A stretch of 64,000 nt of DNA. Source: a bacterium (lineage in GTDB: Bacteria; Hydrothermota; Tepidihabitantia; Tepidihabitantales; Tepidihabitantaceae). Where the stretch lies: positions 1 through 64,000 of the forward strand of contig DATJQV010000012.1 of the NCBI GenBank assembly GCA_035505375.1. The letters are read 5' to 3'. The first letter of the stretch is position 1. Every line of letters begins with the position of its first letter. The translations under genes and the position numbers were made by a program. Shown here in pieces: positions 8,421-57,289 of the stretch. The notes beneath the pieces are model-generated. The model did not search any database and was not told the DNA's origin. It was given only the letters and a program-made list of their open reading frames with translations.

Positions 8421-8440
8421 ATCTTCGCACTCCAGCGCGC

Positions 8441-8560
8441 AAATGACCAATGACCAGTTCCCAGTGACCAGTCAAATCCCAATGTCGCAAGACCCAATCT
8501 GGAATTGGGGCTTTGTTCCTTCGACATTGATTGGTCATTGACGCTTGGTCATTGGTGCTT
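8441..8560. repeat. Heptad repeats forming a long imperfect hairpin between korA1 and korB1
   Basis: Successive 7-mers AATGACC, AATGACC, AGTTCCC, AGTGACC, AGTCAAA run from 8442. The complementary words (TTGGTCA, TTGACGC, TTGGTCA) return at 8530-8555. The tip is a 6-base stem, CCCAAT/ATTGGG at 8493-8509. The whole locus can fold into one long intra-operon hairpin. Confidence 0.75.
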
Positions 8561-8586
8561 GTCGCCACCTGATATCCCATCTTGAC

Positions 8587-11326: not shown

Positions 11327-11451
11327 GAAGGACAAAGTCGTAAGGACAAAGGACTAAGCAAGCACGAATGGCGGAAAGTCCGAATCGGACTTTGGCCTTT
11401 GTACTTTCCTTCTTGCTTTGTCCTTTGTACTTTGTCCTTTGTACTTCGAGT
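11327..11451. repeat. Heptad repeats forming a long hairpin between korA2 and korB2
   Basis: The left arm contains GGACAAA-type words from 11330. The right arm is an exact series TTTGTCC, TTTGTAC, TTTGTCC, TTTGTAC, TTCGAGT (11417-11451). The tip is a perfect 8-base stem, AAAGTCCG/CGGACTTT (11375-11393). Its position between alpha and beta genes matches the locus at 8441 in the other kor copy, but the sequence is unrelated. Confidence 0.8.
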
Positions 11452-13523: not shown

Positions 13524-13823
13524 CCCTATCCCGGCGCTTAGGGGAGTGCTTATCCCGACGCTTAGGACGGTGCTTATCCCAGCGCTTGTGGGGACGCTTG
13601 TCCCGACGCTTGTGAGGGTGCTTGCCCCGACGCTTGTGAGGGTGCTTGTCCCGACGCTTATGGAGGTGCTTATCCCAGCGCTTGTGGGGACGCTTGTCCC
13701 GACGCTTGTGAGGGTGCTTATCCCGGCGCTTGTGACGGTGCTTGTCCCGACGCTTGTGACGGTGCTTGTCCCGGCACTTGTGACGGTGCTTATCCCGGCG
13801 CTTATTACGGCTCCTATCCCGGC
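13524..13823. repeat. 12-bp-period array 1 (25 units, 300 bp)
   Basis: Twenty-five consecutive 12-mers of the type GCTTGTCCCGAC alternating with GCTTGTGACGGT, giving a 24-bp higher-order period. It lies in the divergent region between the kor operon (minus) and the secreted repeat protein (plus). All frames stay open on both strands because of the period. I do not read it as a gene: there is no codon bias, signal or ribosome site. The rest of the 829-base gap (13236-13523) holds a short CACGAAG-type repeat near 13352 and a GGGGGA/TCCCCC hairpin at 13505-13520. Confidence 0.9.
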
Positions 13824-13860
13824 GCTGGGTTTCAGCCGCACCGCCGATGCGGCCATTGGC

Positions 13861-33221: not shown

Positions 33222-33307
33222 GCCCTTTCGCATCCTAACTTCGTCACTAACAATTAGTTATTAGACCTTACTGAATTTCCCCCATCCCGTCTCACCCACT
33301 CTTTGGC

Positions 33308-33655
33308 AAGCTCTCTCCCAAGCTCTTTGGTAAGGCCTCTGCCAAGCTCTCTGGCAAGGTCTCTGCCAAGCTCTCCGGCAAGGTCTCTGCCAAGCTCTCT
33401 ACCAAGGTCTTTCCCAAGCTCACTGGTAAGGTCTCTGCCAAGCTCCTTGGCAAGGTCTCTGCGAAGCTCTCTGCCAAGGTCTCTGGCAAGGACTCCCCCA
33501 GGCTCTTTGGTAGGGTCTCTGCCAAGCTCCCTGGCAAGGTCTCTCCTAAGCTCTCTGCCAGGCTCTCTGGTAAGGTCTCTCCCAAGCTCTCTGGCAAGCT
33601 CATTCCCAAGTTCCCTGCCAAGCTCCTTCCCCAACTCCGTGACAAGCTCTTTCGC
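33308..33655. repeat. 12-bp-period array 2 (29 units, 348 bp)
   Basis: Twenty-nine 12-mers alternate AAGCTCTCTGGC and AAGGTCTCTGCC. GGCA and TGCC alternate every 12 bases, so adjacent units can pair as short hairpins. It lies in the divergent gap between the Xre gene and the RelE gene. All frames are open, but the predicted peptides are 4-residue repeats with no start signals; it is not read as a gene. Confidence 0.9.
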
Positions 33656-49334: not shown

Positions 49335-49394
49335 CAGACCTATAGGTTATCACAACGGCCAGAGGAATCAAGACCACCAACGGGCTAAACCCGA

Positions 49395-49505
49395 ATGACG
49401 AAGCACGAAGACCGAATGAAACTCGAATGCAGGCAAACGGTGAATTCAGGCATTCGGGCTTCAATCGTCATTCGGACTTCGAGCTTCGGGATTCTGCCTC
49501 GGCCG
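49395..49505. repeat. Heptad repeats forming a hairpin upstream of rnpB
   Basis: ACGAAGC, ACGAAGA, CCGAATG, AAACTCG, AATGCAG on the left and GCATTCG, GGCTTCA, ATCGTCA, TTCGGAC, TTCGAGC, TTCGGGA, TTCTGCC on the right are in large part complementary. They fill the gap between arcC and the rnpB promoter. Confidence 0.75.
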
Positions 49506-49544: not shown

Positions 49545-49982
49545 GGAGGCGGGTCGGACGGTCGCCCCCAACCAACGCCGAACGCCAAACGCCGATGTCC
49601 GAAGTTCTGAAATCGGAGTTCGGAGTTTGCACTTCGGAGTTGCCACGGGGGAGGAAAGTCCGAGCACCGCGGGCGAGGCACTCGTTAAGAGCGAGGCTGC
49701 GGGTCGGAAACGGCCCGTGGACGGACAGTGTCACAGAAACCACACCGCCGCGTGCTTGCACGCGGCAAGGGTGAAAAAGTGCGGTAAGAGCGCACTATTC
49801 CGAATGGCGACATCCGGAATGGAAAAACCCTGCCCGGTGCAAGACCAACATGAGAACCGGACTGGCCCGGTCCATTCAAGTTCTCGGGTAGGTCGCTTGA
49901 GACGTGCGGGCAACCGCGCGCCCAGATAAATGACCGTCACCCGGCTTGCCGGGGACAGAACTCGGCTTACAGACCCGCCTCC
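49545..49982 (+). ncRNA. rnpB: RNase P RNA (bacterial type A)
   Basis: The catalytic RNA of tRNA 5'-end processing. P1 pairs GGAGGCGGGTC (49545-49555) with GACCCGCCTCC (49972-49982). Universal cores are present: GAGGAAAGTCCGAGC (49651-49665), GGTGAAAAAGTGCGGTAAG near 49768, GGTAGGTCGCTTGAG near 49889, AGATAAATGACCGTC near 49924 and ACAGAACTCGGCTTACAG (49955-49972), which pairs with the first to make P4. The length of about 438 is larger than usual because the P3 region (between GTCGCCCCC and GGGGGAGG) carries eight heptads as a long hairpin. Confidence 0.95.
49575..49640 (+). repeat. Eight heptads forming the extended P3 helix of RNase P RNA
   Basis: Left arm: ACGCCGA, ACGCCAA, ACGCCGA, TGTCCGA (49575-49602). 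Loop to 49612. Right arm: TCGGAGT, TCGGAGT, TTGCACT, TCGGAGT (49613-49640). Each left word pairs with a right word at about six of seven positions. Confidence 0.85.
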
Positions 49983-50018
49983 AATCTGCTTTGTGTCCCA
50001 TGCCGTGAGATGCCGGAG

Positions 50019-50046: not shown

Positions 50047-50346
50047 GAGTCGCAGCGGGAGTCGCGGTCGGAGTCGCCCTCAGAGTCCCCCCGCAAGTCC
50101 TCACCCATTTCACCTCAGGAGTCGCCTCCGCAATCGCCTTCCACACGACGAGGCAAGTGACCTTCCGAATCGGACGGCGAGTCCCAGCCGGAATCGCACA
50201 CAGACTCACCATCGCAATCGCCGCCAGAACCAACCCAAGAATTACCGTCCTTGTCGCTTTGCATGTCGCCGTCCGAATCACCCCGGGAACCGTTCCCGGA
50301 ACGGTTCCCAAGGCGACTCGCAATGCCGTCGCTCTTGTGATGCTCA
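50047..50346. repeat. 12-bp-period array 3 (25 units, 300 bp)
   Basis: Twenty-five 12-mers in register, consensus GARTCGCCNNCN (for example GAGTCGCAGCGG, GAGTCGCGGTCG, GAATCGCACACA). It is more diverged than arrays 1 and 2 and unrelated in sequence. It fills the region between rnpB and the transposase gene. No gene is seen in it, although frames are open. Confidence 0.85.
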
Positions 50347-50463: not shown

Positions 50464-51147
50464 GTGCCGAGAATAGCGCGGATCGTGGTTCCCGGTGTTC
50501 TGCACCACGTTACGCAACGCGGGAACAACCGGCAGGACGTATTCCTCACGGATGGTGACCGTGAGTTCTATCTCGGGCTACTGCGCAAGCGTTCCGCACA
50601 ATACGGATTGGAAGTGCTTGGATATTGCCTGATGACAAACCACGTCCATCTGCTCGTCAGGCCGCAGACGGCTGATGCCATAGCTCGGGCATTGGGGCGC
50701 ACTCACTTCATCTACGCACAGCGATTCAATACGGAGCACTCCCGCAGCGGTCACTTGTGGCAGGCTCGTTTTTATTCCTGCCCTGCAGAGGAAACTACCC
50801 TCCTCGCCATCATGCGCTATATCGAGCAGAACCCGGTGCGTGCGCGTATCGTCACCCACGCCTGGGAGTACCCATGGTCAAGCGCTGCTTTGCACGTCGG
50901 CAGGCGGAAGGACTCGGGCATGATCGACGCAGCATCGTGGGCTAATCAGATTGCACCGGCCGAATGGCGCACGCTATTGCAGGAAGCTGAGGACGAGGGG
51001 CGCGTAACGGAGATCCGCCGCCGCACCATGATTGGCCGGCCGCTGGGCAGCCCTGAGTTTGTCAGCGAAGTCGAGGCGAAGTTAGACCGGCAGCTCGCCT
51101 ATCGACGACCAGGCCGGCCGCGCAAGGCCGAGCCAGAGCAGCAGTAG
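50464..51147 (+). mobile_element. REP-associated tyrosine transposase (RAYT, TnpA-REP)
   Basis: A 227-residue Y1 transposase of the HUH nuclease fold. Start RIVVPGVLHHVTQRGNNRQDVF, the HUH motif is NHVHLLV, and the catalytic Tyr is in IMRYIEQNPVRARIV. The C-terminus (RRPGRPRKAEPEQQ) is a basic tail. Such single-copy enzymes cut and join short palindromes (REPs) and are held to spread them, rather than moving themselves. Two palindrome families and many hairpin-forming repeats in this window are possible substrates. A GTG start directly follows the promoter. Confidence 0.92.
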
Positions 51148-54841: not shown

Positions 54842-54881
54842 GGGACACGATCCCAAATCTCGGAGATTTGGGTCATGTCCC
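54842..54881 (+). repeat. GGGACA-type palindrome within the riboswitch 5' part
   Basis: Arms GGGACACGATCCCAAATCT and AGATTTGGGTCATGTCCC, flanked by TTGCGC and GCGCA that could close the stem. Same family as 41056-41097. Confidence 0.75.
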
Positions 54882-54987
54882 GCGCACAGGGAAAGCCGTG
54901 TGAATCGGCTGCGGTCCCACCCACTGTGAGCGGTTCCTCGCTCTGTCACACTGACGACTCGGATAGTCAGAATGCAGGGCCAGTAGG

Positions 54988-55022
54988 TTCTGACTTCTGG
55001 TTTCTGAATTCTGAATTGTCCG
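54988..55022 (+). repeat. Five heptads within the cobalamin riboswitch
   Basis: TTCTGAC, TTCTGGT, TTCTGAA, TTCTGAA, TTGTCCG in exact register, between conserved riboswitch blocks. Confidence 0.85.
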
Positions 55023-55135
55023 GTTCGGTGTACTGCCACTGGCCTTGGCCGGGAAGGCGACAGAGTCATGCCGCAAGCCAGGAGACCTGTCCGCCGCCTC
55101 CAATAGGTTCAACTTGTGAGGAAAGGAGAATCGTG

Positions 55136-57289
55136 ATGCAGACGAAGTCAAAGGGCAAAGGTCAAAGGGGAAGTGTCAAAGGACCCGGAGCGACCCGGCT
55201 TGCCCTGCTGGTTGCGCTCGCCGGGGTGGCCGCAGCGGGAACGCTGCGAGGTGTGGTGCTGGATGCCGAAACCCGGCAGCCGGTAGGCTATGCAGCAGTC
55301 AATGTCCCAGACTTGGAACTCAGCACGACGGCCGACTCAACCGGCTCATTTGCGCTTGAGCTTGGGTCCGCTCCCAGTCGCATAACCGTCGTGATCTCTC
55401 GCGTCGGGTATGAAGAGCGTCGCTGGGACGATGTCAGCGTCCAACGAGCCGCGGCTTTCTACCTGCGACCCAGCGCGGTCCGAATGAAGGGAATCTCCGT
55501 AACCGCATTTCGCACTCCGACTGATATCAATCGCTCCGGCCCGGTCTCGGTAATCGAGCCCGGCGACTCAGCCGTCAGCGGCGGCACCAACGTAGCAGAC
55601 CTGCTGCAGGATATGCCATCAGTCATGCTGAAGGACTATGGCAACCTGACGACCATCGGTCTGCGCGGCGCCAACGCGGAACAAACCCTCATACTCTTCG
55701 ATGGAGTCAGGCTAAATTCCGCCCAGGACAACCTATTCGACCTGACTTTGCTGCCCTTGTCGCAGGCCCAGCGGTTAGAAGTCGTCAGGGGCAATAACTC
55801 AGCCCTGTATGGCGCCAACTCCATCGGCGGGCTGGTCAACGTACTCACGCCTGACCCGGAATCGCTCGGCGCGAAGGCGGTCGCTGGCCTCGGCTCGTTC
55901 GGTCGGCGCTATCTAGAGGCTACGCACACCAACTGGTCGGCCCCGCTTGGTTACGTCGTTACCGGCAGCCTGAGCCGAACCGGTGACAAGTTCACGTACC
56001 GGGACACGATGGACTCGCTGCATGAGCGCATCAACTCCGGCATTAACTCCGAGGACGTGATGGCCAAGGGCGTCTACGCGCAAGGCCCGCACCGTGTGTC
56101 ATTGCTAGGCGAATACGGCATCACCCGGCGCGGCGAGCCAGGTCCGACTTCCTGGCCGGCGGACAGCGCCCGCATGGAGGAGTACCGCGGTATCGCGCAC
56201 CTTGCCTACGACCTGCAGGAGACCGACAACTCCAGGCTCGAATCGCGACTCTACTATCACCAGTCTTGGCTGCACTATTGGGACCCGGATACGCTGGCGT
56301 GGGCCAATGACACGCACGTTACGACTATGGCCGGGCTCAACGCGCAGCAGACGACGCATCTTGCCGAATGGGCCACAGCGATTGTCGGACTTGAGGGCGC
56401 GCGCGAGCAGTTCCGAAGTTCGGCCATCGGCACCCCCCAGCGTCTGACCGGCTCAGGCTGGGCCGAGGCGCGTTTGAATTGGCTGGGCTTCGACATTGTG
56501 CCGATGGCGCGATACGACTGGCTGGATGATTCGAGGCAGGAGCCGGACTCCATGCTCACCCGCTCCAGAACCCGTGTCATCAATCCCAAACTCTCACTGA
56601 GCTACTCAGCTTCTTCCTGGCTCAACCTCTACGCCTCGGTCGGACGGTCCTTTCGCGCCCCGACCTTCAATGAACTCTACTGGCCTGCGGACCCATGGAC
56701 CAAAGGCAACCCAAACCTGAAACCGGAATGGGCGACCAGCGTGGACCTTGGCGTGTCGGCCCGGTACGAGTCACTACTTTCCGGGCGGCTCGGGCTCTGG
56801 CACTCATCCCTGACCGACCTCATCGAGTGGCAGCCGGACTCGGCCTATGTCTACAGGCCGGTGAATCTCGACACCGCAACCATCACCGGAGCTGAAGTCG
56901 AGTTCTGCCTTGGTGCCAGGCACGCCGGCCTTGACGGCAACGCCACTTACATGCTCGCCCGCTCACACGGCATGGACCTCATCTACCGACCTCGACTCAG
57001 CTTCGGCGTGTCGCCATGGGCCGGCTGGGGCATAGCAGAGATGACCTGCGACGTCCGCTACACTGGTTCGAGGTACACGACACCGGACACGTTGCCGCCG
57101 AGCGGAGCGAACTCGCTGCCCAGCTACCTATTGGTCGATGTCGGCCTGGCAGTTAGTCCGACATTCGGCCACATAGGGACCGCGCTGCGCGGCGGAGTCC
57201 GCAATCTGTTTGACCGGCAGTACGAAGTGATGAGAGACTATCCGGTTCCGGGTCGCAACTGGTACGCTGAAATCGAGCTGAAACTCTAG
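55136..57289 (+). CDS. TonB-dependent outer-membrane receptor, BtuB-like
   Basis: 717 residues. A carboxypeptidase-regulatory-like domain (residues about 38-118, TLRGVVLDAETRQPVGYAAVNV) precedes the plug (VADLLQDMPSVMLKDYG, then TIGLRGANAEQTLILFDGVRLN, RLEVVRGNNSALYGANSIGG) and a 22-strand-type barrel ending YAEIELKL. The riboswitch upstream argues for cobalamin or a corrinoid as ligand. The start is ATG 55136 with AAAGGAG nine bases before it. The first residues before the signal helix (SKGKGQRGSVKGPG) are encoded by six heptads. The gene overlaps the convergent M23 gene by four bases. Confidence 0.9.
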   Translation: MQTKSKGKGQRGSVKGPGATRLALLVALAGVAAAGTLRGVVLDAETRQPVGYAAVNVPDLELSTTADSTGSFALELGSAPSRITVVISRVGYEERRWDDVSVQRAAAFYLRPSAVRMKGISVTAFRTPTDINRSGPVSVIEPGDSAVSGGTNVADLLQDMPSVMLKDYGNLTTIGLRGANAEQTLILFDGVRLNSAQDNLFDLTLLPLSQAQRLEVVRGNNSALYGANSIGGLVNVLTPDPESLGAKAVAGLGSFGRRYLEATHTNWSAPLGYVVTGSLSRTGDKFTYRDTMDSLHERINSGINSEDVMAKGVYAQGPHRVSLLGEYGITRRGEPGPTSWPADSARMEEYRGIAHLAYDLQETDNSRLESRLYYHQSWLHYWDPDTLAWANDTHVTTMAGLNAQQTTHLAEWATAIVGLEGAREQFRSSAIGTPQRLTGSGWAEARLNWLGFDIVPMARYDWLDDSRQEPDSMLTRSRTRVINPKLSLSYSASSWLNLYASVGRSFRAPTFNELYWPADPWTKGNPNLKPEWATSVDLGVSARYESLLSGRLGLWHSSLTDLIEWQPDSAYVYRPVNLDTATITGAEVEFCLGARHAGLDGNATYMLARSHGMDLIYRPRLSFGVSPWAGWGIAEMTCDVRYTGSRYTTPDTLPPSGANSLPSYLLVDVGLAVSPTFGHIGTALRGGVRNLFDRQYEVMRDYPVPGRNWYAEIELKL
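55146..55187 (+). repeat. Six in-frame heptads in the receptor signal region
   Basis: AGTCAAA, GGGCAAA, GGTCAAA, GGGGAAG, TGTCAAA, GGACCCG. They give a Lys/Gly-rich n-region ahead of the signal-peptide helix. Confidence 0.8.

Follow-up and report, generated by a model that had tools for sequence, protein, structure and literature searches.

The 64,000-nt stretch of DNA that we analysed (hereafter the window) comes from the genome of an uncultured WOR-3 bacterium (G000) and carries a type A RNase P RNA gene (rnpB), followed by a Y1 transposase gene and a cobalamin riboswitch, as well as a number of short palindromic repeats built largely from 7-base units (Table 1). One of these heptad hairpins occupies the P3 arm of the RNase P RNA. 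In the following, G001 to G005 denote the five congeners, G008 a member of another genus of the same family, other G numbers further WOR-3 genomes, and L numbers our labels for loci.

Table 1. Features of the window discussed in the text (positions are those of the window; "." denotes no assigned strand)
Position	Strand	Feature	Evidence
8437..8565	.	intergenic heptad hairpin (AATGACC-type)	
11327..11447	.	intergenic heptad hairpin (AAGGACA family, Fa)	
13525-13826		long tandem array of 24-bp units (12 or more copies) overlapping predicted open frames	
33299-33653		long tandem array of 24-bp units (12 or more copies) overlapping predicted open frames	
49387..49493	.	second heptad hairpin (CGAATGA/CGAAGCA family, Fc) just upstream of rnpB	present in all congeners except G005
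49546..49985	+	RNase P RNA gene (rnpB), type A, single copy	RF00010, 236.3 bits (gathering score 100), E 1.4e-75, model 1-367; one match in the genome
49565..49569	+	P3 basal strand 5' (CCCCC)	covariance-model structure line and MFE fold
49575..49602	+	left arm, four heptads ACGCCGA ACGCCAA ACGCCGA TGTCCGA	
49579..49635	+	stretch recognised by the dispersed-repeat model Fd3	E 7.1e-10 over 1.4 Mb of own genome
49613..49640	+	right arm, four heptads TCGGAGT TCGGAGT TTGCACT TCGGAGT, pairing with the left arm	
49647..49651	+	P3 basal strand 3' (GGGGG), abutting the universal GAGGAAAGTCC	covariance-model structure line and MFE fold
50274..50320	.	dodecad palindrome (family D1, GGGAACCGTTCCC) between rnpB and the transposase gene	
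50464..51147	+	Y1 transposase (IS200-like / RAYT-like), candidate but unproven mobiliser	PF01797, E 1.7e-16
54842..54881	.	40-nt dispersed palindrome (family P1) in riboswitch arm A	identical 40/40 to a copy on contig C4 of G000 (L249:1038-1077)
54847..55108	+	cobalamin riboswitch with two repeat inserts in peripheral arms	RF00174, 50.2 bits; genus alignment
54966..55022	+	heptad repeat (family Fb, TTCTGAC units) in riboswitch arm B	model trained without the window, E 6e-6
55147-55182		heptads (TCAAAGG-like) inside what looks like the N-terminal coding region of the gene after the riboswitch	

A heptad hairpin in the P3 arm of RNase P RNA

The Rfam type A model aligns the whole rnpB gene end to end and places the heptads in a 77-nt insertion between the two P3 strands. 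Of the 28 facing bases in the two arms, 21 form Watson-Crick pairs, a value that was reached at only 1 of 154,101 sampled genome positions of the same geometry; the lag-7 identity of the arms is 31/42, against a mean of 11.1 and a maximum of 23 in 5,000 dinucleotide shuffles; and the 89-nt P3 folds at -40.8 kcal/mol (z = -4.3), with 0 of 200 shuffles as good. The genus alignment shows that the conserved core and the universal GAGGAAAGTCC and ACAGAA blocks are intact. These results confirm the position and content of the hairpin in the first-pass annotation, which had claimed that the heptads lengthen P3 without disturbing the catalytic core.

The P3 arm is not conserved within the genus. In four of the five congeners P3 is empty, reading CCCC-(TTGC, TTAC or TTTAC)-GGGG, although the gene body after P3 is 88-94% identical between G000 and its congeners. 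The fifth congener, G002, has 119 nt at the same place, which form a different heptad hairpin (GACGCCG GGCGCTT CACGCTC ..., z = -5.2), and G008 has an array with octad-like units. Besides P3, only the P12 tip (in G005) and a 3' hairpin (in G003) differ much in length. Across about 45 WOR-3 rnpB genes that we read, P3 is mostly 12-31 nt, and arms over 80 nt were seen only in G000, G002, G008, G018 and G104.

Dispersed relatives of the P3 hairpin

The P3 insert is a copy of a dispersed repeat, here called Fd. BLASTN of the insert finds over 50 matches (E <= 0.1) in five of six genus genomes. A profile (Fd3) trained only on five copies from the sister genome G003, with nothing from rnpB, finds the window P3 over 57 nt, essentially tied with the best G000 hit, whereas shuffled sequence gave one hit below E 0.1. 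The insert of G002 belongs to another dispersed family. In 616 kb of G000, 60 gapless hairpins reach score 16 against 1 in shuffled sequence, and 10 of the 13 strongest have period 7 or 14. In total, nine repeat families (heptads Fa-Fe, octads O1, dodecads D1, and simple palindromes P1 and P2) give 269 non-overlapping copies in the 1.85 Mb sampled. The heptad families are degenerate and cross-match weakly, so copy-by-copy descent is uncertain.

The heptad, octad and dodecad families avoid open reading frames (0.10-0.36 open against about 0.7 at random positions), although part of this may be due to stops within the repeats. By contrast, P1 and P2, which are 40-60-nt palindromes (GGGACATGACC..., GGAAAACGGGGACTGT...; e.g. 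L168:4131-4181 and L166:2383-2449), lie in open frames as often as random positions do (0.73-0.78), and it is possible that they sit within genes like Rickettsia palindromic elements. Some heptads may also lie in coding sequence: G002 has different heptads (TAGACAG) at the start of its gene corresponding to the one after the riboswitch in the window, and (A)AGCCGCA-type heptads appear inside regions that look like coding for C-terminal sorting domains of secreted proteins (L183:282-500, L170:1937-2186 and L185:1155-1374), suggesting that repeats also sit in protein loops.

The repeats behave as mobile. Orthologous intergenic slots carry different families in different congeners: the slot at 8437 holds the AAGGACA family in G005 and no heptad array in G003 or G004; the slot at 11327 holds AAGGACA in G000, G002 and G005, and AATTCCC-type arrays in G001 and G004. 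Two Fd copies in G003 differ at one visible position and lie at unrelated sites, and two O1 copies are 97.5% identical over 121 nt with unrelated flanks; no consistent target-site duplication was seen in these near-identical pairs. Y1 transposases occur 4-7 times per genome, one of them 0.5 kb downstream of rnpB and, in G005, another 0.3 kb from tmRNA. However, heptad families do not regularly flank the eight RAYT-like loci plus L049 (D1 dodecads lie near three), and no mobilising enzyme was found.

The cobalamin riboswitch and other RNAs

The cobalamin riboswitch of the genus shows the same kind of colonisation. It is short in G001, G002 and G004, whereas two peripheral arms hold different repeats in the other species: arm A holds the P1 palindrome in G000 and a period-10 array in G005 (91% over 70 nt to a copy in G000); arm B holds Fb heptads in G000 and unrelated heptads in G003. 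The 3' hairpin of rnpB in G003 is a P1 copy. Together with the two P3 inserts, this makes seven insertions at four sites of two RNAs in six species, and for six of the seven a dispersed relative was found. The heptads of arm B in G003 gave no second copy in the sample, so some arrays could arise in place. We found no such inserts in tmRNA, which is 352 nt in all six congeners, or in the first two thirds of 23S, which are of equal length in G000 and G005.

Origin of the P3 hairpin

Our results suggest, with a probability of about 0.86, that the P3 hairpin is a lineage-specific copy of a dispersed, non-coding heptad palindrome that entered the loop of the short P3 helix of the cell's only RNase P RNA gene after this species split from its congeners. 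In this reading, the copy is transcribed as part of the ribozyme and forms an extra rod of about 30 bp on top of P3; because P3 tips lie at the periphery, the core is unaffected and the copy survived. There are no RNA or activity data and the genomes are metagenome-assembled. We infer rather than demonstrate that the RNA still works with its rod, that the copies spread by transposition-like copying, and that survival at tips reflects tolerance rather than a targeting enzyme. The best reading is one of mobile, MITE/REPIN-like palindromic repeats that persist where structured RNA tolerates them. Length variation of P3 or of riboswitch arms is often read as functional adaptation; here it is explained by repeat colonisation, and the empty, filled and differently filled alleles of one genus offer natural variants for testing how much cargo the P3 tip can carry.

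The first-pass annotation had proposed that the repeat machinery tolerates, or targets, hairpin tips of essential RNAs; our analysis supports the former but not the latter. In the stronger, targeting form of our reading, which is not exclusive of it, palindromes made of 7-, 8- or 12-base units, or simple 40-60-nt palindromes, would be directed to hairpin loops, as single-stranded or cruciform DNA, by a single-strand (Y1/IS200-like) machinery, so that tips of structured RNAs would be recurrent landing sites and the RNase P and riboswitch arms in this phylum would be reshaped by selfish DNA. Such a mechanism would be in line with the presence of Y1 transposases, with the four different peripheral hairpin sites of two RNAs that hold repeats, and with a few nested copies that break a host palindrome near its centre: a search for split copies gave three cases (breaks at 0.54, 0.52 and, farther from the centre, 0.66), and joining of flanks gave one clean case of a P2 palindrome nested in the tip of another P2 palindrome (L282:4705-4787, break at 0.45). 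These cases are too few for a test of tip preference, insertions in essential RNAs are ascertained only where they are tolerated, heptads do not regularly flank the transposases, and tmRNA and the part of 23S compared show no such inserts; we therefore consider targeting possible but unlikely.

It is less likely still that the array arose in place, through slippage on a 7-base unit plus template-switch correction of the quasi-palindrome, without copying from elsewhere. Heptameric repeats are over-represented in many bacteria and slippage has been proposed as the cause (discussed in PMC4692102); moreover, different species carry different units in the same P3, and the arms pair in register. However, the sequence of the insert, and not only its period, matches dispersed copies, as do the insert of G002 and the palindrome in arm A of the riboswitch. 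The least likely alternative is that the long P3 is an adaptation (for protein binding, stability or localisation) kept by selection: P3 length probably varies naturally among type A RNAs and two of six congeners independently have long P3 arms, but most congeners do without one, the sequences are unrelated between species, and the same sequences occur in non-RNA places.

Tandem heptamers within rnpB have a precedent in the STRR repeats of heterocyst-forming cyanobacteria (Vioque 1997, Nucleic Acids Res 25:3471), the only such case to which our literature searches for repeats inside RNase P RNA pointed; the resemblance is one of working alike, and we make no claim of common descent. The repeats here are imperfect palindromic arrays that form a hairpin in P3, with two different families at the same site in congeners; the present case adds a new phylum, defined empty, filled and alternative alleles in one genus, and a riboswitch colonised in parallel. 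Geobacter metallireducens has multicopy elements of four or five tandem 7-mers or 8-mers, in several classes, mostly found in pairs and some aligned as sequences that loop back on the opposite strand (PMC2700814); these were interpreted as regulator-binding or regulatory RNA elements, and we saw no insertion into structured RNA genes in the passages of that study that we read. Like REP/REPIN palindromes with RAYT transposases, the repeats described here are short, non-autonomous and palindromic, fall into many families and occur in genomes holding Y1-type transposases, and the D1, P1 and P2 families resemble REPs; the heptad arrays, however, are longer (60-125 nt), degenerate, and not linked to the RAYT-like genes here.

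An independent hint that the RNase P RNA of this phylum is often invaded comes from a different WOR-3 family, in which rnpB carries 100-310-nt inserts with GCACC-type palindromic ends, such as GCACCTATTTTGC...GCAAAATAGGTGC, at peripheral hairpin tips (P12 and others; L311, L312, L313, L314, L021 and L028). In G104 (L313:329-624) the insert encodes a GIY-YIG domain (PF01541, E 1.7e-11), and related copies lie elsewhere in G108, G116 and G118.
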